Positions 1-9,219 of a stretch of 9,219 bases of DNA are shown here, one piece after another. Source of the DNA: Chloroflexota bacterium (GTDB lineage: Bacteria > Chloroflexota > Anaerolineae > Anaerolineales > Villigracilaceae). Every line of letters begins with the position of its first letter. Positions within the stretch are counted from its first letter, which is position 1. Under the pieces are notes generated by a model. The model did no database searches. It saw only the letters and a program-made list of their open reading frames with translations, and had not been told where the DNA came from. The DNA lies in contig JAJYOH010000208.1 in NCBI GenBank assembly GCA_021796315.1, forward strand, positions 1 through 9,219. Reading direction: 5' to 3'. The translations under genes and the position numbers were made by a program.

Positions 1-26
1 CTGTTATCATGCAAGTAGGCATCCCG
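1..26. repeat. 26-bp exact inverted match to the HExxH tip of copy 1 (2579-2604)
   Basis: The first 26 bases are the exact reverse complement of 2579-2604, which encodes RDAYLHDNS in the first metallopeptidase tip. The match stops at 27/2578 and may continue beyond the left edge. The reading frame across this point is open, so the encoded N-terminus of the first protein is uncertain. Confidence 0.8.
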
Positions 27-2797
27 CCTCAACCACGGCGTCCACCCCAACCAGTTTGGCGCCGAACCTGGTGAGCATCACCGTTCAAGATACAAGCAAC
101 GCGCCGAAAAGCGGGCTGGCGGTCTATGTCTTCGATGGCAGCACTTATACTGGTCACAACGGAACCACCGATGCGAACGGCCAGGTCTCGTTCACTTTGC
201 CGGATGGCAGTTATCGCTTCCGCGCAGATCTCAATGGAACCCAGTTCTGGAGCAGTGCGCAGAACGACTGCACGATCCCGACTTGCGTCTCGGATATCAT
301 CACAGTGACTGAACCAGTAACCATAACGGTGAAAGATACATCTGACACACCGAAATCAGGATTGCCGGTTTACGCCTTCAATGCTTCAACCTACACGGGT
401 TACAACAGCACAACCGATTCCAACGGGCAGGTGAGTCTGACCCTGCCGCAGGGAAGTTATCGCTTCCGCGCAGACCTGAACCCCCAAGGAACGGGGGCAG
501 GCGGCACACAATTCTGGACGAGCGCGCAGAACGATTGTGCGATTCCGGGTTGTGTAAGTGATTCCATTACCGTGACCTTGCCTGTGACAATCACGGTGAA
601 AGACACGGATGGAACCGCGAAAGCAGGTTTGAACGTTTACGCGTTTGCAAGTTCGATGTACACAGGTTTCAATGGAGTCACGGACAGCAACGGACAGGTG
701 AATCTGACTTTGCCCCAAGGCGAATATCATTTCCGCGCGGACTTGAACGGCACACAATTCTGGAGTAGCGATCAGAACGATTGCACACTTCCCGGATGCA
801 CAACAGCCAGTATCATGGTGACCAAGCCATTAGTCCTCACCGTGCAGAGCCAGACCGGACAGCCCTATCCCAATCTACCGGTCTATGCTTTCGATGGAAC
901 CACGTACACCGGCTACAATGGCACGACCGACACCAACGGGCATGTGACCTTCACCCTGCCGCAAGGGAACTACCATTTCCGTGCCGATTACAACAGCGTG
1001 CCGTTCTGGAGCAGTGACCAAAACGACTGCACGCTTCCCGGATGCACAACCGAAACCGTGACCTTGCCCGGAGGCACTGGGCAGCAGAAGGTGACGATCA
1101 ATTACACCTACGATGCTCTCGGCCGCCTGACCGCTGCGAACTACAGCGATGGCAATTCCTTCGCTTATGCGTATGATGCCGCTGGAAATGTCCTGCAATA
1201 TACGAGCACGGTCAACGGTCTACCGTCCACCGTCTCATACACCTACAATTCTGCCAACGAACTGGTCACCGCGCAACTGGGCAACTCACCCGCCACGAAT
1301 TACACCTACGATGCGGACGGCAATTTGTTATCCAACAGTGTGAACACGTATGCTTATGATTCCGCCGATCGTTTGATTACGGTCAACGGTACGTCAGGCA
1401 CGGTCAGCATGGCTTACGACGGTTTGGGTAATCGCCTGTCCATGAGCGCGGCAGGTGTGACCACGCAGTATGTGTTGGATGGCAACAACCCGCTTATGGC
1501 AACCGCCGCGGGCAAGACCACCTTCTATCTGTATGGTGTGGGGCCAATAGGTGAGCTGACCGATTCGTGGGCGTATGATCTTTCGGATGGTACGAACACG
1601 CCGCGCCAACTTGTAGATGCGCAAGGCAACATCACTTACGCAGCGCGCTATACCCCTTGGGGCGATACGATGGAATCCAATGGCACAGGGAACTTCACCT
1701 TCGGTTATCTGGGCGGTTTGATGGATAGTGCTACCGATCTGATCTATGTTGGCAATGGACAGTACTATGATCCAGCAACAGGAAGATTCATCAATCGCAA
1801 TGCCAACTCAAATAGCACCAACCCGTATGTGCCATGGGGAGGTAATCCAACCGGAGTGCTTTTCACTCCGCTGGCTCTGCTGTCTCTGGTTTACACTCGC
1901 AAGAAGAAACGCGGTACACTGGATACGATCATTATTTTGGTTGTGCTAGGCGTGGCGCTTGGTATGAGTCTGGCGGGGTGTAACTTCAGTCAGCCAGTGC
2001 CGGGTGGAACAGCTAGCGGTACTGCCACTCCGACTCCAACTCCTGCTGAACCTTCTGCGCTCACCGTGACGGCTACATATACGCCCACACCGACAGGCAC
2101 TCCGGTTCCATCACCATCTGTGACTTGCACGGCCACGCTTACGCCAACATCAACACCAATATCATCCATTGCTGACTACCTTAAACAAATGTTCGGCGTA
2201 GAATTACTGAACGGTACCACCGACGCAACAGGAATTTGGGATCAAAGGCGAGCCGAGAACGCTCTTCGGGCAGTCACGGATGTGGCCACAAAGCTTTCTG
2301 CGATATCTGGCAAGAATCCCTCAGATGCCTTTCGTACTAACTTTGACACCTACAGCGAGAATCTCGTGATGAAAAAAGTATTTTCCTTTGACTATAATGG
2401 ACAAACTTTTTATGGTGGCGGAGTCACGCTGGGTCCCCATCTGATAATCTTTGCTTGGATTGATTATAAGCGAGATGACTCTATGCGTAATAATATAGTG
2501 CACGAATTAGGTCATGCATTTAGCTCTAATAAGGGTTTCGAGCCGCAGAAAGAGATACCACAAGTTTTACTGAATAATCGGGATGCCTACTTGCATGATA
2601 ACAGTACGGTCATGTGGCAAGCCCATAGATCATCGGAGCCAGGAGAAACATTTGCCGACATGTTCTTAGCATACACATATGGAGTATGGCGAGATCCAAT
2701 TGATGTTAAAAGGTTACAGGCGGCAGATCCTGCACACCCTGAAAATTGGAATCCTCCGCAATGGATAGATGATCATATGAGAACGTGGGTAAAATGA
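2..2797 (+). CDS. Rhs/YD-repeat protein with HExxH metallopeptidase C-terminal tip (5' partial)
   Basis: Numbering is from a TTG at 56, giving 913 residues. That TTG has no ribosome binding site and the frame is open back to position 2, so the true start probably lies upstream. Residues 5-340 are four Ig-like repeats. Residues about 346-587 are a short YD-repeat core (NYTYDALGRL, YTYDADGNL, GQYYDPATGRF). Residues 589-642 hold a basic stretch, a membrane helix and a lipobox-like LAGC. Residues 643-702 are a Thr/Pro linker. Residues about 703-913 are the tip, with HELGH at 816-820 and ETFADMF at 864-870, which fits a zinc peptidase with E864 (or D868) as third ligand. The canonical DPxGL self-cleavage motif at the end of the core is absent. 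The YD core is far shorter than in full-length Rhs proteins. The tip is more AT-rich than the core, as expected of a swapped module. Lipoprotein A follows at once. Rhs and peptidase assignments are from motifs; the toxin role is inferred. Confidence 0.82.
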   Translation, partial: CYHASRHPASTTASTPTSLAPNLVSITVQDTSNAPKSGLAVYVFDGSTYTGHNGTTDANGQVSFTLPDGSYRFRADLNGTQFWSSAQNDCTIPTCVSDIITVTEPVTITVKDTSDTPKSGLPVYAFNASTYTGYNSTTDSNGQVSLTLPQGSYRFRADLNPQGTGAGGTQFWTSAQNDCAIPGCVSDSITVTLPVTITVKDTDGTAKAGLNVYAFASSMYTGFNGVTDSNGQVNLTLPQGEYHFRADLNGTQFWSSDQNDCTLPGCTTASIMVTKPLVLTVQSQTGQPYPNLPVYAFDGTTYTGYNGTTDTNGHVTFTLPQGNYHFRADYNSVPFWSSDQNDCTLPGCTTETVTLPGGTGQQKVTINYTYDALGRLTAANYSDGNSFAYAYDAAGNVLQYTSTVNGLPSTVSYTYNSANELVTAQLGNSPATNYTYDADGNLLSNSVNTYAYDSADRLITVNGTSGTVSMAYDGLGNRLSMSAAGVTTQYVLDGNNPLMATAAGKTTFYLYGVGPIGELTDSWAYDLSDGTNTPRQLVDAQGNITYAARYTPWGDTMESNGTGNFTFGYLGGLMDSATDLIYVGNGQYYDPATGRFINRNANSNSTNPYVPWGGNPTGVLFTPLALLSLVYTRKKKRGTLDTIIILVVLGVALGMSLAGCNFSQPVPGGTASGTATPTPTPAEPSALTVTATYTPTPTGTPVPSPSVTCTATLTPTSTPISSIADYLKQMFGVELLNGTTDATGIWDQRRAENALRAVTDVATKLSAISGKNPSDAFRTNFDTYSENLVMKKVFSFDYNGQTFYGGGVTLGPHLIIFAWIDYKRDDSMRNNIVHELGHAFSSNKGFEPQKEIPQVLLNNRDAYLHDNSTVMWQAHRSSEPGETFADMFLAYTYGVWRDPIDVKRLQAADPAHPENWNPPQWIDDHMRTWVK
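68..1075 (+). repeat. Four tandem Ig-like (carboxypeptidase-regulatory-like) domain repeats
   Basis: The units lie at about 68-316, 317-583, 584-829 and 830-1075, each 82-89 codons. Each contains TVxD, GLxVYxF, YTGxN, TTDxNGxV, LPxGxYxFRAD, FWSSxQNDC and PxC. The DxNG turn followed by LPxGxYxFRA is typical of the carboxypeptidase-regulatory-like or SpaA/prealbumin-type beta-sandwich that forms extracellular stalks. Each unit has two cysteines about five residues apart (C-x4-C), perhaps a disulfide in an exported protein. Unit 2 has a 7-residue Gly-rich insertion before GTQFW. Similarity is clear at the DNA level, so the array could expand or shrink by recombination. Confidence 0.85.
1431..1635 (+). 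repeat. 205-bp tract identical to 8649-8853
   Basis: Every base matches the fourth cassette at a constant offset of 7218. The 130 bp just before the tract, at the same offset, differ at many (about 18) positions, and the sequence after it diverges at once. This marks a recent exchange or gene conversion between Rhs core copies. Confidence 0.85.
1820..1981 (+). other. Copy 1 of 54-codon membrane/lipobox module between Rhs core and tip
   Basis: It encodes NPYVPWGGNPTG, a short hydrophobic stretch (LFTPLALLSLVY), a basic cluster (TRKKKRG), a second hydrophobic helix (TIIILVVLGVALGM) and SLAGC. Basic cluster, helix and lipobox-like cysteine together resemble a lipoprotein signal peptide placed inside a large protein. 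A Thr/Pro linker follows. The same module recurs at 4066-4227, 6458-6619 and 9038-9199, always exactly 162 nt. Confidence 0.75.
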
Positions 2798-2807
2798 ACG
2801 TTCGATC

Positions 2808-2812
2808 GGAGG
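2808..2812 (+). promoter_or_regulatory. Ribosome binding site that decides a TTG start
   Basis: A perfect GGAGG lies 5 nt before a TTG at 2818. The upstream alternatives in the same frame, GTG 2785 and ATG 2794 (the latter in an ATGA overlap with the preceding stop), have no comparable site. The TTG start also gives a cleaner lipoprotein signal peptide. Confidence 0.65.
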
Positions 2813-2817
2813 TAAAT

Positions 2818-3819
2818 TTGAAGCCACAAGTGTGCAAGTTGGGATTGTGCCTTGGCATTTCGTTGTTGGTTTTGTTGGGCTGTATTCCCATAGCTAACAA
2901 TTCAGGAATTCATGTAAGCGAAACCACGACCACATCATCTCTACAGTCAACTGCTACAACAAATTCGGTAGAGAGCACTATTCCCTCATCACCCATTCCC
3001 ACGGGAACTCCTGTCAATATTTCAACATTGAGTCTGGGTGACGCATATCTGTCATTGCAAAAATTGATTCAAGGTGGTCAAAGTTGCCTGCTTCCCTGCT
3101 GGGGTGGAATAATTCCTGGGGTGACCTCAACTTCAGATGCAAGTGTTAAACTACAAACCTTGTTTCAAGTGGCTACCGGTGGGCCACCGCTTTACTACAA
3201 GGGCCAACAGTTCCTAACTGCAGGTGGCGGTAGGAGCTTCCTCCTCGATGATGCAGAGATCAACCTTGTTTTAGGATGGTTGTATCATCCCGACAGAGAG
3301 ACAGTAGAGATGGTGCAAGTCGAAGCATTTGCCTTTCAGAAACTAAAAGATACAAAAGAGTATCTATACGGCAGTCAATCATATAAACAGCTATTTGAAG
3401 AATATGGCATTCAAAAAGTCTTATCTAGCTATGGGCGTCCGTCTAAAGTTTTGACATTCGCATATGTTTATGGATATGGTAATAGTAACCCTTATCCGAA
3501 TCCGGAGGAGTTCCAAATATTATTGCTGTACAACAAGGGAATATTTATTAACTACATGATGCCGTTGAAGCGAATAGGAAATGACAATGGAGAGGCTTGT
3601 CCAGCTGACGCATTTTTTGATATGTGGCTTATTCCGACCGGAAGCAGCGATTTTTATCAAGAGATGTGGTCGTCTTCGGTTACCGGCTCGCCGGATTTTT
3701 CTTCCCGCCTGAAAGTTGAAGAATCTACACAATTTACAGAGGATAGTTTCTACCAAACCTTTAGGGCATCAACTAATACATGTGTAGAAACTCCTTTGGG
3801 AATCTGGCCACAGCACTGA
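2818..3819 (+). CDS. Lipoprotein A, putative immunity partner of the HExxH tip
   Basis: The product is 333 residues from the TTG start, or 344 from GTG 2785. The signal peptide is MKPQVCK, a hydrophobic core, then lipobox LLGC with Cys22. A Ser/Thr-rich tether follows, then a globular domain with SCLLPCWGG, SSYGRPSKV and a C-terminal FTEDSFYQTF...TCVE segment. The product should be exported and anchored on the outer face of the membrane. It resembles lipoprotein B (7462-8298) in all three segments, and both genes directly follow an HExxH tip, which supports a cognate pairing. I recognise the cysteine/PCW motif as common in Anaerolineae hypothetical lipoproteins but cannot name a characterised family. 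The gene starts within 21 nt of the upstream stop, so co-transcription is likely. Immunity is inferred from position; a general lipoprotein role is the alternative. Confidence 0.8.
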   Translation: MKPQVCKLGLCLGISLLVLLGCIPIANNSGIHVSETTTTSSLQSTATTNSVESTIPSSPIPTGTPVNISTLSLGDAYLSLQKLIQGGQSCLLPCWGGIIPGVTSTSDASVKLQTLFQVATGGPPLYYKGQQFLTAGGGRSFLLDDAEINLVLGWLYHPDRETVEMVQVEAFAFQKLKDTKEYLYGSQSYKQLFEEYGIQKVLSSYGRPSKVLTFAYVYGYGNSNPYPNPEEFQILLLYNKGIFINYMMPLKRIGNDNGEACPADAFFDMWLIPTGSSDFYQEMWSSSVTGSPDFSSRLKVEESTQFTEDSFYQTFRASTNTCVETPLGIWPQH

Positions 3820-3840
3820 TAATGGTTTGCTCAACGAAAC

Positions 3841-3954
3841 CCACACCCAGTGCCAACTGAGCGACGCTAATGGAAGGTCACTCACACACCAAGATATACA
3901 CCTTGAGGCGACACGCTGGAATCAAGCGGCACGGGTAACTTCACTATCGGTTAC
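3841..3954 (+). pseudogene. Broken Rhs-core remnant at the head of displaced cassette 2
   Basis: The DNA aligns with the core of copy 1 at about 1600-1700. The frame reading QLSDANG (compare QLVDAQG in copy 1) loses one nucleotide near 3875-3879, where 5 nt replace 6. In the new frame RYTPWGD has become RYTP-stop-GD, because TGG is TGA at about 3897. Beyond that the frame is intact (SSGTGNFTIGYLGG). A ribosome arriving from further upstream therefore could not translate cassette 2 as a fusion. Confidence 0.7.
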
Positions 3955-5043
3955 TTGGGCGGCTTGATGGATACATCAACTAGATTGATCTATGTGGGGA
4001 ACGGGCAGTATTATGATCCAAGCACTGGAAGATTCCTGTCGCGCGGTGCAAACACCAATAGCACTAATCCGTATGTGCCGTGGGGAGGCAATCCAACCGG
4101 TGCACTCTTCACACCGTTAGCTCTGCTGTCTCTGGTTTACACTCGTAGGAAGAAACGCGGTACACTGGATACAATCATTATTTTGGTAGTGCTGGGTGTG
4201 TCGCTTGGAATGGGATTGTCTGCATGCGGGACTAATCCTGCTCCTCCACCTGTGATTACGATCACGCCTACCCCCACTCCGAATGGAACTCCAGAGGTAA
4301 CAATCACGGCAACGGCAACAGTTCCTGCTCCTCCTGGTACTCCCACCCCAACTATTACCGTAACTTGCACGGCCACAGCTATCTCAGGCACGCCAACGCC
4401 CATGGCCACATCAGGGTATTATATTCCCACTGAATCACAAGCTAAGGATGTTGATGGAAATTTCAAGGATGCTATTCCCGTCGACTCTACCGGATATGCT
4501 AATCAACTATATTTGACTAGTTACGAATATAAGGGCACTGCTAACGAATATACCAATGGTCTTGCTGGCAGTCTTCCGCCTTTAAAGGTATACGATGGTA
4601 TTATATATGATTACAACTATACCTGCCTACAAGGTTCAGCGAAATTAGATTTATCAGCTAACGGACATTACATTTCATGCAATACAGCATCTGCATGGTC
4701 TGGTTATATAAGTTACAATCAGAATCCCAACAGAGCAAAATTGGATATCAGGTATAGGTGGGCCGATGAGACAAAAATTAGATCGTTAAAAGCCTTCCAT
4801 ACTGCAGCAGTTTGCCCTGGTTCTCCGCTTTATGGAAAAACAGTTCAAATCGTTGGATTACCAGATAATGCAATGCAAATACTAAAAGACCATGGGAACT
4901 CAGATGCAATATTCAATGTGGTAGATACGGGTGGAAGGCTGTGCTCAACGAATGCAATAGATATTTTTACCGGAGAGGGCGCTACCGCTTATGGGTTCGA
5001 TCCCGCTTTTTATACTCATCCAGTCACAGTTTATCAACAGTAG
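3955..5043 (+). CDS. Displaced Rhs cassette 2: core end, membrane module and 3D/double-psi-barrel-like tip
   Basis: There are 362 residues from a TTG at 3955 (ATG at 3967 is an alternative). Neither has a good ribosome binding site, so this may be a silent cassette used by recombination. Residues 1-37 are the end of the Rhs core (IYVGNGQYYDPSTGRF). Residues 38-91 are the membrane/lipobox module ending LSAC. Residues 92-150 are a Thr/Pro linker with a TCTAT motif. The tip covers about 151-362. Its last 75 residues read as a 3D-like double-psi beta-barrel: SPLYGKTVQIVG (compare xPLGTKVYI), then VVDTGG with D324 and NAIDIF with D336, matching the spaced Asp pattern of the 3D family found in MltA-type lytic transglycosylases and resuscitation-factor-like wall enzymes. 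A role in peptidoglycan cleavage is inferred. The first half of the tip is unrecognised. A lipoprotein beta-propeller follows 20 nt later. Confidence 0.72.
   Translation: MGGLMDTSTRLIYVGNGQYYDPSTGRFLSRGANTNSTNPYVPWGGNPTGALFTPLALLSLVYTRRKKRGTLDTIIILVVLGVSLGMGLSACGTNPAPPPVITITPTPTPNGTPEVTITATATVPAPPGTPTPTITVTCTATAISGTPTPMATSGYYIPTESQAKDVDGNFKDAIPVDSTGYANQLYLTSYEYKGTANEYTNGLAGSLPPLKVYDGIIYDYNYTCLQGSAKLDLSANGHYISCNTASAWSGYISYNQNPNRAKLDIRYRWADETKIRSLKAFHTAAVCPGSPLYGKTVQIVGLPDNAMQILKDHGNSDAIFNVVDTGGRLCSTNAIDIFTGEGATAYGFDPAFYTHPVTVYQQ
4066..4227 (+). other. Copy 2 of 54-codon membrane/lipobox module
   Basis: Same order as copy 1: NPYVPWGGNPTG, LFTPLALLSLVY, TRRKKRG, hydrophobic helix, LSAC. The first 47 nt (4066-4112) are identical to copy 3 (6458-6504). 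Confidence 0.75.
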
Positions 5044-5053
5044 TGCCGATACT

Positions 5054-5057
5054 GGAG
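5054..5057 (+). promoter_or_regulatory. Ribosome binding site for the beta-propeller lipoprotein
   Basis: GGAG lies 6 nt before the ATG at 5064. It selects that start over ones further upstream in the same frame (for example 4941), which would overlap cassette 2 and put about 41 non-signal residues before the lipoprotein signal peptide. Confidence 0.65.
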
Positions 5058-5063
5058 ATTCCA

Positions 5064-6194
5064 ATGCAGAAAAGAAAGTCTCTCACTCTAAAATTAGTTA
5101 TATTTGCTTCAGTACCTATCCTTCTGATGAGCTGTATGTCCTTGGTGGGCAATATTTCCGCGACCGAGAAAGTGAGTTCATCGCCGACCGTTGTACAGGG
5201 TACTCAGGAAAGCACATTAGCACCTTCTTTGTTGGCTGAATGGACAATAGGAAACCCACAGGATATAGCCTGGAGTCCAGATAGCAAATTGTTTGCAATC
5301 AATTATGTGATGGATGGGAACAATTTCGTACAAGCCTTTTCTGTAGAGACGTTCAAAAGTGTGTGGACTGCTAGTAACAGTTTGGCATCCGACTTAGTTT
5401 TCACACCGGATGGACAGTTTATTGTAGAATCAAATATACATGTTCCTCTCTTCTATTGGAGGAACATACACCAGGGCAACATAGTGCATATGGGTGAATT
5501 CAAAGATGTGGAACACATCGCGAATGGGTCTTGCAGTGGTGGCGGGCAGGTTATGATAGAAAATGCCAAGGGAGATTTTGCTGTAATTGCAGATTACAAC
5601 GAAGTGTTTGGTCTTAACGGGCCGGGTTTAGTTTTCGTCCGTCAGTTGGATTTAGAAACAGGTAAATGTAAGGAACTATTCAATTATCAAGATCCTTCTC
5701 TGGACTTCTTCTTTGACTTGAACTCCAGCGGCACTCTCTTAGCTTACGGAGTTGCGGACAAAGACGATTCAATTGTAATATGGGATATGGAAAAGCAATC
5801 AGAAGTATGTCACATTTCCCCAGTACTGTTTGAGCGTTTTGTTCCTAGCGGAAACACATTAGCAGTAGTACAAGATCAAAAGATGGTTTTTTTCAACGCA
5901 ACAACTTGCAAAGAAATCAGAGAGTTGAACGTATCCCCTCTCTCTGGTTATGAAACTTATTTGGCTTTTAGCCCCAATGGAGAGGAGTTTGCCATTGCCA
6001 AAGATTCAATTCAAATTATGAATGTATCCACCGGCGATATCTTAACACAAATTGCCATTCCCAAAAATGCTTATCTTAACTCATCGAAACTCTTTTGGAG
6101 CGGAATTAAGTTTAGTCCAGATGGCCGGTATCTTCTAATCACTTACACAACATCAAATGCCAATGAAATCCAGCTTTGGCAACTAAAACAATAA
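5064..6194 (+). CDS. Lipoprotein with WD40-like beta-propeller, putative immunity partner of cassette 2
   Basis: The product is 376 residues. The signal peptide MQKRKSLTLK plus a hydrophobic core ends at lipobox LMSC with Cys24. A short Ser/Thr tether leads into propeller-like repeats: DIAWSPDSKLFAI, DLVFTPDGQFIV, LNSSGTLLAYG...IVIWDME, YLAFSPNGEEFAI...IQIMN, IKFSPDGRYLLI and a closing IQLWQL. The [FW]SPDGxxLA pattern is that of WD40/TolB-type propellers, which bind proteins or glycans on their faces. The protein should sit on the outer surface of the membrane. It starts 20 nt after cassette 2 ends, in the same position lipoproteins A and B hold behind the HExxH tips, but its fold is unrelated to theirs. 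That matches the different tip it follows. Binding and neutralising the cassette 2 tip is inferred. Confidence 0.8.
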   Translation: MQKRKSLTLKLVIFASVPILLMSCMSLVGNISATEKVSSSPTVVQGTQESTLAPSLLAEWTIGNPQDIAWSPDSKLFAINYVMDGNNFVQAFSVETFKSVWTASNSLASDLVFTPDGQFIVESNIHVPLFYWRNIHQGNIVHMGEFKDVEHIANGSCSGGGQVMIENAKGDFAVIADYNEVFGLNGPGLVFVRQLDLETGKCKELFNYQDPSLDFFFDLNSSGTLLAYGVADKDDSIVIWDMEKQSEVCHISPVLFERFVPSGNTLAVVQDQKMVFFNATTCKEIRELNVSPLSGYETYLAFSPNGEEFAIAKDSIQIMNVSTGDILTQIAIPKNAYLNSSKLFWSGIKFSPDGRYLLITYTTSNANEIQLWQLKQ

Positions 6195-6232
6195 TCGGAT
6201 TATTCATAGAAATCGGAATTGCTCAATAGCCC

Positions 6233-7411
6233 AATACTCCGCGCCAATTGACAGATGCGAGCGGAGAAGTCACCTACTCGGCACGCTACACGCCGTGGGG
6301 CGACTTGATGCAATCTAGCGGGACAGGCAACTTCACTATCGGCTACTTGGGCGGGCTGATGGATAATGCCACTAACCTGATTTACGTTGGCAACGGGCAG
6401 TATTATGATCCAAGCACCGGAAGATTCCTATCACGCGATGTAAATCCAAACAGCACCAATCCGTATGTGCCGTGGGGAGGCAATCCAACCGGTGCACTCT
6501 TCACGCCGCTGGCATTGCTGTTCCTTGTTTACAGCTGCAGGAAGAAACGCGGTACACTGGATACAATTGTAGTTCTGATAGTATTAAGCACAGCTCTTGG
6601 ATTGGGATTATCGGCGTGCCAAACCACACTGCAAACGCCATTTGGAACTGTTGCAGTTACTGCCACGCCCAACCCAAATGGCACGGTAGCAGTAGCTGTC
6701 ACCGTTACACCTTCTCCTACATCAACCCCTTCTGGTACTCCAACAAACACTCCTACTGCGACTTGCACAGCGACCGTCGTGCCAATAACGGATGACGATT
6801 ATAAAACACAGATTTCCACGAGATTCGGTATAACCCTTTCGGATGACACAGGAAAATGGCACACAACGGAGATTCACATCGCGTTTGGTGCGCTTTCAAA
6901 CATTGATGCCGCACTGAATGGCATGCTAAAAACATTGCTTAATGGACCAAAGACTTTCTACATAAAATGGAATCAGAATAACTATGGTGGGACTACTTAT
7001 CCTCAGCGGATCAATTTCCGGTACAACGGACGATTCCCATATTTGCTAATTTACCATGAAATGGGACATTTGCTCAACTATAGCCTCGGAGGAAGATTCG
7101 TTAACGCTCTGAACCATGGAGAAGTTACTGCGGATGGCGAAGTAGTTATGGGAAGAGACAAACCTCAATCTGATTACCACAGAAATAACTGGGCAGGATA
7201 CAAGGACCACTATCTCACTGACCCGAATGGGTTTACCCTAAGAGCGTTGATGCACCCTGCAGGCGCAGGTGATTTCGATGGCACAGGAAACACTCCAGAT
7301 GAGGATTGGGGAGACATGTTCGCAAATTTTGTTGCAGGGAATATCGATTTAACAACTGCAGCAGGGAAAGCGAGATATGATTGGACAATCAAATACCTCT
7401 TCCAAAAATAG
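6233..7411 (+). CDS. Displaced Rhs cassette 3: core end, membrane module and second HExxH metallopeptidase tip
   Basis: The frame opens after a TAG at 6227-6229, and core homology starts at once (NTPRQLTDASG). The first usable start in frame is TTG 6248 (387 residues), with no convincing ribosome binding site; ATG 6308 is another candidate. Residues numbered from 6248: core end to about 70, membrane/lipobox module 71-124 (ends LSAC), Thr/Pro linker with TCTAT to about 178, tip about 180-387. The tip has HEMGH at 270-274 and EDWGDMF at 352-358, aligning with HELGH and ETFADMF in copy 1. It also shares FG[VI]xL and TG[IK]W near its start, so the two tips are distant relatives. No frame damage is seen, but without a proper start this looks like an orphan cassette awaiting recombination onto a full core. 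Lipoprotein B follows after 50 nt. Wall or surface proteins as substrates are inferred. Confidence 0.78.
   Translation, partial: NTPRQLTDASGEVTYSARYTPWGDLMQSSGTGNFTIGYLGGLMDNATNLIYVGNGQYYDPSTGRFLSRDVNPNSTNPYVPWGGNPTGALFTPLALLFLVYSCRKKRGTLDTIVVLIVLSTALGLGLSACQTTLQTPFGTVAVTATPNPNGTVAVAVTVTPSPTSTPSGTPTNTPTATCTATVVPITDDDYKTQISTRFGITLSDDTGKWHTTEIHIAFGALSNIDAALNGMLKTLLNGPKTFYIKWNQNNYGGTTYPQRINFRYNGRFPYLLIYHEMGHLLNYSLGGRFVNALNHGEVTADGEVVMGRDKPQSDYHRNNWAGYKDHYLTDPNGFTLRALMHPAGAGDFDGTGNTPDEDWGDMFANFVAGNIDLTTAAGKARYDWTIKYLFQK
6458..6619 (+). other. Copy 3 of 54-codon membrane/lipobox module
   Basis: Same length and order as copies 1 and 2. The basic stretch is SCRKKRG, with a cysteine where the others have Thr. 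The helix is slightly diverged (TIVVLIVLSTALGLG) and ends LSAC. Confidence 0.75.
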
Positions 7412-7452
7412 AGAGACCAATTGCAATCTAGGCATTTGATATCCATGCACGC

Positions 7453-7457
7453 GAGGT
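7453..7457 (+). promoter_or_regulatory. Ribosome binding site for lipoprotein B
   Basis: GAGGT lies 4 nt before the ATG at 7462. It lets lipoprotein B be translated independently of the orphan cassette. Confidence 0.55.
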
Positions 7458-7461
7458 AATT

Positions 7462-8298
7462 ATGCGCATAAAGAAGTGTAGCTTGCTACTAATTTTGTTT
7501 ACCATCCTCAATGGGTGTAGAGGTTTGGGCACAAACTATTCTGTCAGTACCCCACTCTCAAATGTGACCCAAATACCGAATGTCTCGCTTACCGAGAATT
7601 CGACCATAACGCCTACGCTATCCCCTTCCGATATCCAGAAAGAATTAGAGGCCTTTCTGCAAACGAATGGAAATTGCCTTTTTCCTTGTTTCTGGGGAAT
7701 TCGCCCAGAGTTGACAAGCTACACTCAAGTGGAAAGCCTTTTCAACAGTCTAGGCAAGCAGGGTTTTGTAAGCAATCAGGGAGTTCATACTCTTGTGTCT
7801 ACTACCCTTGCTTTCAAAGGAGGCGGTAGGGTCTATTTCAAGACAGATATACAAAATAATGTGGTTCAGAACATCGAAGTCACACTGGACGGACTATGGA
7901 ATCGCGAAATCAGGCCCCAAGACTGGTCGGCCTATCATCTCAGTGAGATACTACGAAAATATGGCCATCCCACTTCGATTGAACTCTACTTGGATCTTCC
8001 AAATAACCTAATTCTATATGGTATTAAATTGACATACAATGATCTTGATACCATCGTGTTATACACGGCGAGCAAATCTCAAGATAAGATCCCGTCGTCC
8101 CACGTGAGTATATGCCCAAATGGAGAAATAGAATCTGTAAAGATAAATCTAGGTAAGAGCCCAATAAATCCAGAACCGAGCGGTGTTCCATTATCGAATG
8201 CAACAGGACTGACCATAGATGATTTTTATGGGCTATTTGCGGGAGACACGACAAGTTGTCTTGATATTAGTCTACAAGCAATGGGATGGCAGCAATAA
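7462..8298 (+). CDS. Lipoprotein B, putative immunity partner of the cassette 3 HExxH tip
   Basis: The product is 278 residues. MRIKK, a hydrophobic core and lipobox LNGC (Cys19) form a lipoprotein signal peptide, followed by a Ser/Thr/Pro tether. The globular part contains NCLFPCFWGIRPELTS, RKYGHPTSI and a C-terminal LTIDDFYGLFAGDTTSC. These line up with SCLLPCWGGIIPGVTS, SSYGRPSKV and FTEDSFYQTFRASTNTC in lipoprotein A, so A and B are diverged members of one family, each behind an HExxH tip. It should act on the outer face of the membrane. The stop codon lies inside the 9-bp target duplication of the element behind it, so that insertion left the gene intact. Immunity is inferred; no characterised family is recognised. 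Confidence 0.8.
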   Translation: MRIKKCSLLLILFTILNGCRGLGTNYSVSTPLSNVTQIPNVSLTENSTITPTLSPSDIQKELEAFLQTNGNCLFPCFWGIRPELTSYTQVESLFNSLGKQGFVSNQGVHTLVSTTLAFKGGGRVYFKTDIQNNVVQNIEVTLDGLWNREIRPQDWSAYHLSEILRKYGHPTSIELYLDLPNNLILYGIKLTYNDLDTIVLYTASKSQDKIPSSHVSICPNGEIESVKINLGKSPINPEPSGVPLSNATGLTIDDFYGLFAGDTTSCLDISLQAMGWQQ

Positions 8299-8340
8299 GC
8301 ATGGCGTTACCAAAGTCGGGAAATTCTTAACGCGAATGTC

Positions 8341-8399
8341 GCGAACGAGCGAATTTCACGAATTCTTCAGGACTCTATTCGCGTTATTCGCCTGTTCGT
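8341..8399. repeat. Imperfect hairpin rich in CGAAT motifs inside the MITE-like element
   Basis: The arms 8341-8363 and 8377-8399 match at 17 of 23 positions (19 allowing G-U pairs), with a 13-nt loop. CGAAT and its complement recur on both arms and just upstream at 8332-8336. No T-run follows, so a simple intrinsic terminator is unlikely. Confidence 0.55.
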
Positions 8400-8401
8400 G
8401 A

Positions 8402-8417
8402 TGGCGCCATGGCGCCA
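8402..8417. repeat. Perfect 16-bp palindrome
   Basis: tggcgccatggcgcca reads the same on both strands and contains two GGCGCC sites. It lies 2 nt after the CGAAT hairpin inside the MITE-like element. It could be a structural part of the element or a protein-binding site; nothing in the sequence decides. Confidence 0.7.
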
Positions 8418-8482
8418 CGTCCCAAATCTGTCATCCTGTCAAGCGACTTTGGTAAAACCATAAGCAATAAGTTAGCAAGATA

Positions 8483-9219
8483 ATGCCGTCAAGTAGGCAG
8501 ATCGTTTGTGGCCGCGATTACACCTACGATGCGGACGGCAACCTGCTTTCCAACGGCGTGAACACGTATGCCTATGATTCAGCCGATCGCCTGATCACGG
8601 TCAACGGTCCGTCGTCCACGGTCAGCATGTCTTATGATGGTTTGGGTCATCGCCTGTCCATGAGCGCGGCAGGTGTGACCACGCAGTATGTGTTGGATGG
8701 CAACAACCCGCTTATGGCAACCGCCGCGGGCAAGACCACCTTCTATCTGTATGGTGTGGGGCCAATAGGTGAGCTGACCGATTCGTGGGCGTATGATCTT
8801 TCGGATGGTACGAACACGCCGCGCCAACTTGTAGATGCGCAAGGCAACATCACCTACTCGGCACGCTACACGCCGTGGGGCGACCTGATGCAATCCAGCG
8901 GGACAGGCAACATCACCATCGGTTACCTGGGCGGGTTGATGGATACATCCACTGGATTGATCTATGTTGGCAACGGGCAGTATTATGACCCGACGACTGG
9001 ACGATTCCTATCGCGCGGTGTAAATTCAAACAGCACCAATCCCTATGTGCCGTGGGGAGGCAACCCAACTGGCGCGCTCTTTACACCGTTAGCCCTGCTC
9101 TCTCTGGTTTACACTCGTAGGAAGAAACGCGGTACACTGGATACAGTTGTCGTTCTGGTGGTGTTGGGCGTAGGTTTAGGTATGAGTTTGTCGGCATGTG
9201 CAGGAGCAACACCACCTCC
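8483..9219 (+). CDS. Rhs cassette 4: YD core end and membrane module, 3' partial
   Basis: The frame opens after a TAA at 8468-8470, and ATG 8483 is the first start, with only a weak purine stretch before it. Eleven unrelated codons precede the point where homology to copy 1 begins abruptly (about 8517, DYTYDADGN). From there YD-type sequence, YGVGPIGELTDSWAYD, ARYTPWGD and GQYYDPTTGRF run without damage into the membrane/lipobox module (9038-9199, ending LSAC) and the first residues of a linker. The tip lies beyond the right edge. This cassette keeps more core than copies 2 and 3: about 117 codons more than copy 3. It is mosaic, with 8649-8853 identical to copy 1 and 8850-8884 identical to copy 3. 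It could be an orphan cassette or the start of an expressed short Rhs gene. Confidence 0.75.
   Translation, partial: MPSSRQIVCGRDYTYDADGNLLSNGVNTYAYDSADRLITVNGPSSTVSMSYDGLGHRLSMSAAGVTTQYVLDGNNPLMATAAGKTTFYLYGVGPIGELTDSWAYDLSDGTNTPRQLVDAQGNITYSARYTPWGDLMQSSGTGNITIGYLGGLMDTSTGLIYVGNGQYYDPTTGRFLSRGVNSNSTNPYVPWGGNPTGALFTPLALLSLVYTRRKKRGTLDTVVVLVVLGVGLGMSLSACAGATPP
9038..9199 (+). other. Copy 4 of 54-codon membrane/lipobox module
   Basis: Identical in length and order to the other three, with TRRKKRG, a Val-rich helix and SLSAC. The linker after it starts AGATPP and is cut by the window edge. Confidence 0.75.

Follow-up and report, generated by a model that had tools for sequence, protein, structure and literature searches.

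Does a stretch of DNA in which one Rhs core end recurs four times, with changing C-terminal tips and a lipoprotein gene behind each complete tip, encode a family of toxins with their immunity proteins, and on which side of the membrane would these act? The question is raised by a 9,219-nt stretch of contig JAJYOH010000208.1 (positions 1 to 9,219, hereafter the window) from a Chloroflexota bacterium (assembly GCA_021796315.1; Villigracilaceae). The answer that we consider likely is an orphan-cassette array of Rhs toxins that act outside the membrane, with each adjacent lipoprotein serving as the cognate immunity protein, an exported carrier, and a recurrent module that forms a membrane hairpin. 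The evidence for this reading includes a tip-specific pairing across genomes: in the surveyed loci, a lipoprotein of one family, named here CxxPCWxGI after its motif, stands behind 15 of the 17 complete tips with an HExxH motif and behind none of the 45 other tips.

A main Rhs gene followed by displaced cassettes

The four copies, each comprising an Rhs core end and a 54-residue double-hydrophobic module, lie in register on one strand (+), with start-to-start spacings of 2246, 2392, and 2580 nt; over the 300 nt compared, copies 2 to 4 are 72, 75, and 79% identical to copy 1. Complete tips are present in three of the four, copy 4 being cut off at the end of the window, and from the stop of each tip it is 20, 20, or 50 nt to the start of the partner gene (TTG at 2818, with GGAGG ahead; ATG at 5064; ATG at 7462). 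The final scripted rule assigns type II signal peptides to all three partners, which are thus predicted lipoproteins, although a stricter first rule missed the third. An earlier, sequence-only reading had described the same layout, namely four copies on one strand over 9 kb and three complete tips, each with an exported lipoprotein within about 50 nt, and this description holds. The features are listed below; the coordinates of the modules were derived by hand from a protein alignment.

2..2797, + strand: cassette 1, C-terminal portion of a long Rhs protein, with the 5' end beyond the window (domain and repeat comparison)
1820..1981, + strand: module copy 1, ending in LAGC
2195..2794, + strand: tip 1, zincin-like metalloprotease domain, HELGH at about 2501-2515
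2818..3819, + strand: partner lipoprotein A, CxxPCWxGI family, lipobox LLGC, TTG start behind GGAGG
3907..5043, + strand: cassette 2, decayed core stub, module, and 3D-like tip (open frame; first usual start TTG at 3955)
4066..4227, + strand: module copy 2, ending in LSAC
4450..5040, + strand: tip 2, 3D-like, probable peptidoglycan-acting domain (hhalign profile match)
5064..6194, + strand: partner 2, WD40-type beta-propeller lipoprotein, lipobox LMSC
6230..7411, + strand: cassette 3, core stub, module, and HExxH tip (first usual start TTG at 6248)
6458..6619, + strand: module copy 3, ending in LSAC
6809..7408, + strand: tip 3, HExxH domain, HEMGH at about 7055-7069
7462..8298, + strand: partner lipoprotein B, CxxPCWxGI family, lipobox LNGC
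8483..9219, + strand: cassette 4, core stub and start of the module, cut by the window end (core DNA comparison)
9038..9199, + strand: module copy 4, ending in LSAC

Cassettes 2 to 4 are not full Rhs genes but 5'-truncated stubs, homologous to the main core and without normal starts. The DNA upstream of copies 2 and 3 is core-like yet decayed, and copy 4 retains more of the core. Against the core-end profile TIGR03696 (cut-off 32.5 bits), cassettes 1, 3, and 4 score above the threshold (32.6, 37.7, and 36.2 bits), and the stub of cassette 2 alone falls below it (18.0 bits). The core is also a mosaic: between cassettes 1 and 4, identity is 94.3% (315/334) up to a single alignment column near 1634/8852 and falls to 76.0% (263/346) past it, and just beyond this break copy 4 is for a while 93% identical to copy 3 (56/60). 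The GC content is about 0.52-0.57 in the core and mostly 0.40-0.46 in the tips and partners. Collectively, the core stubs, the mosaic core, and the base composition are marks of displaced cassettes joined via a recombining core, as in enterobacterial rhs/cdi loci. The window would accordingly represent the 3' part of an rhs locus, in which a single Rhs gene precedes a series of displaced tip/partner cassettes, probably silent, that could be swapped onto the carrier by recombination within the conserved core.

The domain order of cassette 1 is four CarboxypepD_reg/Ig-like repeats, YD repeats, the Rhs core end, the module, a Pro/Thr-rich linker, and the HExxH tip. The repeats form a tandem stalk ahead of the Rhs core (119-1050, spacing 246-267 nt), and similar repeats occur in P0002 and P0004. 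Between lipoprotein B and cassette 4 (8300-8440), the palindromic ATGGCGCCATGGCGCCA and repeated CGAAT-type words are found, resembling a dispersed repeat.

Tips resembling extracellular enzymes and two kinds of partner

The tips that can be assigned resemble extracellular enzymes. For tip 1, the best Foldseek match is the Pro-Pro endopeptidase PPEP-1, a secreted protein according to the title of PDB entry 2n6j; the match to the fold of the VgrG2b metallopeptidase is weak (rank 33, TM 0.31-0.33, E 3.4). Tip 2 alone has no match in Pfam, but when it is aligned with its relative from locus L006 and compared with a group of three tips, one of which is above the Pfam 3D cut-off, hhalign returns a probability of 96% (E 2.5e-9). 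Its partner is a WD40-type propeller, in keeping with the combination of a 3D-like tip with a beta-propeller that had been proposed from the letters of the window.

Lipoproteins A and B are homologous, with a common lipobox cysteine, the C-x-x-P-C-[WF]-x-G-I motif, and further conserved cysteines; they constitute one family, so the window contains two kinds of partner rather than three. The earlier proposal that tip and partner vary together thus survives at the level of tip class, by the counts given above, and its separation of A from B does not. The AlphaFold2 model of lipoprotein A (pLDDT 82) has no match in the PDB at E <= 0.001, and the CxxPCWxGI lipoproteins carry no Pfam or NCBIfam name. 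Within the titles and abstract openings of the open-licence papers that our searches listed, we found no description of either this family or the hairpin module.

The resemblance to secreted enzymes such as PPEP-1 would also fit a peaceful role, in which the producer uses the tips as enzymes to remodel its own surface, the lipoproteins regulate or anchor them, and no conflict between cells is involved. We regard this as unlikely: the carrier is constant and its tips vary, the displaced stubs retain intact partner genes, and the partners are specific to the tips, all of which is typical of polymorphic toxin loci as described in work on such systems (PMC3150448, PMC3967940). If the tips are indeed toxins, they would be enzymes working outside the cytoplasmic membrane, namely zincin-like proteases and a wall-acting 3D-like domain, with others in the relatives, and the adjacent lipoprotein would be the matching immunity protein, exposed in the compartment where the tip acts.

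Partner type follows tip type across genomes

Two core peptides searched against contigs of 84,980 species gave 32 pattern matches; seven loci encode a relative, and all seven belong to Anaerolineae, Anaerolineales, or Chloroflexi metagenome-assembled genomes. The single viral match was short. A module profile built from 15 rows and searched within Chloroflexota matched 11 of 152 genomes of one GTDB family, 1/5 and 1/2 genomes in two further families, at least 5 of 396 genomes in a class-level draw, and at least 2 of 400 in a phylum-level draw, the last two values being lower bounds because only part of the candidates per genome was scored. For the comparison of tips and partners, 33 module matches reaching model position 110 were taken from 20 fetched regions, the window, and locus L007. 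In 22 of them at least 180 residues follow the module, which defines a complete tip; the other 11, truncated, decayed, or cut, were left out. Canonical control tips came from 20 further chosen regions and from the first 20, and a locus present in two overlapping regions was counted once.

By the wider scripted rule, a lipoprotein gene comes next after 21 of the 22 complete module tips (18 under the stricter rule), compared with 14 of 40 canonical Rhs tips. The difference persists among tips lacking HExxH, with 13/14 on the module and 7/31 on canonical cores. The sequence-only reading had suggested tabulating tip domain and next gene in related genomes, and the tabulation reveals the specific association of HExxH tips with CxxPCWxGI lipoproteins, 2 of the 15 pairings being weak family matches (35.6 and 29.4 bits). 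The two unpaired HExxH tips have the variants HEGRH and HEARH, and the HEARH tip is followed by a propeller lipoprotein. Among the 14 module tips without HExxH, 12 have a partner with some Pfam beta-propeller signal, weak in three cases. The partner type is thus predictable from the chemistry of the tip.

The association also extends beyond the module. In P0059, a canonical core end with DPTG bears a tip that shares 55% identity with tip 3, and the occurrence of the same HExxH/CxxPCWxGI pair on both module and canonical cores indicates that the pair, not the module, is the portable, swappable unit; the module, judging from these sequences, is one way of carrying such pairs. In locus L109 (G459:C167), nine Rhs core-end matches lie within 18 kb; six complete canonical tips were identified by pattern, and HExxH is present in three of them, each with a CxxPCWxGI lipoprotein. 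In L171 (1-2642), an HExxH tip with a CxxPCWxGI partner lies on a 590-residue frame, and no Rhs core end was seen in its last 330 residues.

We also examined the family from the side of the lipoprotein, using matches to about E 1e-25 and those in the fetched loci (at least 80 bits and 180 model positions; 65 distinct copies). Upstream there is a module Rhs with HExxH in 7 cases, a canonical Rhs with HExxH in 17, an HExxH frame with an incomplete or other carrier in 10, a canonical Rhs without HExxH (HKLGH by eye) in 1, a tandem copy in 1, a contig end in 1, and another gene in 28. Hence, the situation that would have told against the earlier proposal, lipoproteins mostly away from tips, was not encountered, with 34 of the 65 directly behind an HExxH frame, although the share found elsewhere is large. 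These 28 copies suggest that the family may do other work too. They also speak for an explanation in which the function of the CxxPCWxGI lipoproteins is a general one and they stand beside Rhs tips only incidentally, as does the presence of a match (E <= 1e-5) in 52 of the 152 family genomes, far above the 11 with the module. We nevertheless hold this explanation to be very improbable in view of the pairing with 15 of 17 HExxH tips and none of the 45 other Rhs tips, and immunity genes without a toxin are known in other systems (e.g., PMC10539506); the copies away from tips are perhaps such stand-alone immunity genes. By eye, some of the 28 loci without an HExxH tip upstream (e.g., L168, L190, and L110 near 12300) have propeller-like genes ahead of the lipoprotein.

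Several observations weigh against our preferred reading of exported toxins with lipoprotein immunity. Beyond the 28 copies behind other genes, several tip assignments fall under Pfam cut-offs, the HEGRH tip of L046 has a lipoprotein of no known family, and the module tip of L063 is the sole one among the 22 with a membrane partner instead of a lipoprotein. In that locus (2923-3887), the module core carries a trypsin-like tip with HGDSGGG, recognized by eye, followed by a single-span membrane protein. A third of the canonical Rhs tips also have lipoprotein partners, so there is no sharp divide between module and canonical cores. The proposal of the sequence-only reading that lipoprotein partners point to action outside the membrane is supported, with the correction that such partners are not confined to the module: canonical cores carry them as well, including the very same pair. 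Finally, the module loci are few and related, and the counts overstate their independence.

A probable hairpin module with a conserved cysteine

The module consists of a hydrophobic stretch, a basic loop, and a second hydrophobic stretch with a terminal lipobox-like cysteine. In 32 of the 33 modules the second stretch terminates in [AG]C, and in 24 in a strict lipobox, [LVI][ASTVI][GAS]C; the only [AG]C exception, L059, is a weak match and probably decayed, and L060, with the second stretch in another frame, and other partial matches under the length limit lie outside the 33. Among 250 other internal hydrophobic stretches of the fetched loci, [AG]C ends occur in 15 and strict lipoboxes in 3. 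In the window copies, the cysteine is conserved despite changes between TGT and TGC codons. The mean net charge (n=30) is +4.7 between the hydrophobic stretches and -0.3 and -0.6 in the flanks. By the positive-inside rule, a basic loop is placed on the cytoplasmic side, and the loop charge accordingly points to a hairpin that enters the membrane from outside and returns there, leaving the cysteine outside, the arrangement of a lipoprotein signal peptide. Such a hairpin, with its basic loop inside, would keep the core and the tip at the cell surface. Export of the carrier would proceed by Sec; in L045 and L046, the long Rhs protein begins with what by eye resembles a Sec-type signal peptide, and so does a frame lying immediately ahead of the long Rhs protein in L006. 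At about 9000-9060 of L003, a core stub contains a PSTSSGQA insertion that resembles a dispersed repeat inside the gene.

The joint between core and tip differs from the canonical one as well. Self-cleavage of RhsA requires the Asp of DPxG and an Asp 22 residues before it, and replacement of Asp by Asn abolishes it (PMC8765631). In the window, this joint is lost, with Asn in place of Asp in all four copies. Across the 30 readable modules, Asp is found at the DPxG place (loosely D[PA]x[GS]) in 10, soon after GRF in 11, and at both positions in 5, compared with both aspartates in 32 of 35 canonical Rhs controls, where the earlier Asp was equated with the first Asp of RhsA by position alone.

The conserved lipobox-like cysteine and the mostly lost self-cleavage aspartates suggest release of the tip by signal peptidase II. 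Tentatively, then, the module may act as a lipoprotein signal peptide within the chain: after export of the Rhs protein, signal peptidase II would cut ahead of the conserved cysteine, and the tip would leave as a lipid-anchored surface enzyme, with this cut replacing aspartyl self-cleavage. In that case, both the toxin and its immunity protein would be lipoproteins, sharing one face of the membrane, and tips might even pass between cells as lipoproteins. The alternative, which is plausible but similarly doubtful, retains exported toxins with lipoprotein immunity and treats the hairpin as just an anchor or a leftover, with an unlipidated cysteine and a tip that a different protease releases or that remains on the carrier. 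The modules with Asp at the DPxG place, and above all those with both aspartates, leave room for cores that still self-cleave, and the signal peptidase cut is itself a prediction from sequence. Nor do the window modules reach the NCBIfam anchoring model NF058595 (invert_tail; cut-off 37 bits), against which cassettes 1, 2, and 4 score 17.0, 27.6, and 15.7 bits and cassette 3 is unlisted. Against a mere anchor or leftover stand the near-invariant [AG]C end, rare in other hydrophobic stretches, and the retention of the cysteine through codon changes. None of the 152 family genomes has an invert_tail match over the cut-off, and some of the best sub-threshold matches are modules; the single match above the cut-off, in a draw of 400 genomes from the phylum, resembles by eye an Ig-type repeat protein.

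Comparison with known systems

The kind of system is already known; new, it seems, are the variant form of the carrier, the family of candidate immunity proteins, and the scale on which tips are specifically paired with partners in Chloroflexota, a phylum in which, as in its class Anaerolineae, we found little on Rhs in open-licence papers. A secreted Rhs carrier that could free its tip without self-cleavage is a testable idea. The closest counterparts are the orphan rhs-CT/rhsI and cdiA-CT/cdiI arrays, in which a main gene is likewise followed by tip fragments that retain some core, lack start signals, and have their own partner, and in which core identity permits recombination (PMC3150448, PMC3967940). 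The window differs from them in its exported lipoprotein partners (the word lipoprotein is absent from the main text of PMC3150448) and in having a predicted membrane hairpin instead of a plain joint between core and tip. RhsA resembles the window in its core end, where a PxxxxDPxG joint precedes the tip, but the Asp whose change to Asn stopped its self-cleavage is the one replaced by Asn throughout the window (PMC8765631).

Among systems with other carriers, TslA-TilA of Staphylococcus combines an extracellularly acting enzyme toxin with a neutralizing immunity lipoprotein; it is, however, a lipase of a type VII secretion system with the reverse domain order, and we found no Rhs core or hairpin described for it (PMC10730906). 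In the C-terminal metallopeptidase of VgrG2b with PA0261, and in Tpe1-Tpi1, the toxin is a zinc metallopeptidase of the HExxH type whose site of action is the envelope, where the immunity protein is also located, and the Enterobacteriaceae homologues of the VgrG2b immunity protein are predicted lipoproteins (PMC6899460). VgrG2b differs in being a spike effector of a type VI secretion system in two-membrane bacteria (PMC6899460), and its fold matches tip 1 weakly, as noted above.

Finally, Tox-MPTase1-5 and the L,D-peptidase Rhs toxins of a large 2012 survey are examples of Rhs carriers tipped with HExxH peptidases and cell-wall enzymes (PMC3482391). The table of this survey gives Tox-MPTase1-5 without any immunity protein, and we found no CxxPCWxGI family named in its text, making these lipoproteins candidate immunity proteins for a class of HExxH Rhs tips with none listed there (PMC3482391). 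The sequence-only reading had set the window against known Rhs and contact-dependent inhibition loci with cytoplasmic immunity proteins, a contrast that proves too sharp, as extracytoplasmic or lipoprotein immunity is in print (PMC3482391, PMC10730906, PMC6899460). In the 2012 survey, the location of immunity follows that of the toxin; it includes the extracytoplasmic immunities to L,D-peptidases and Imm65, the only lipoprotein recorded there (PMC3482391).
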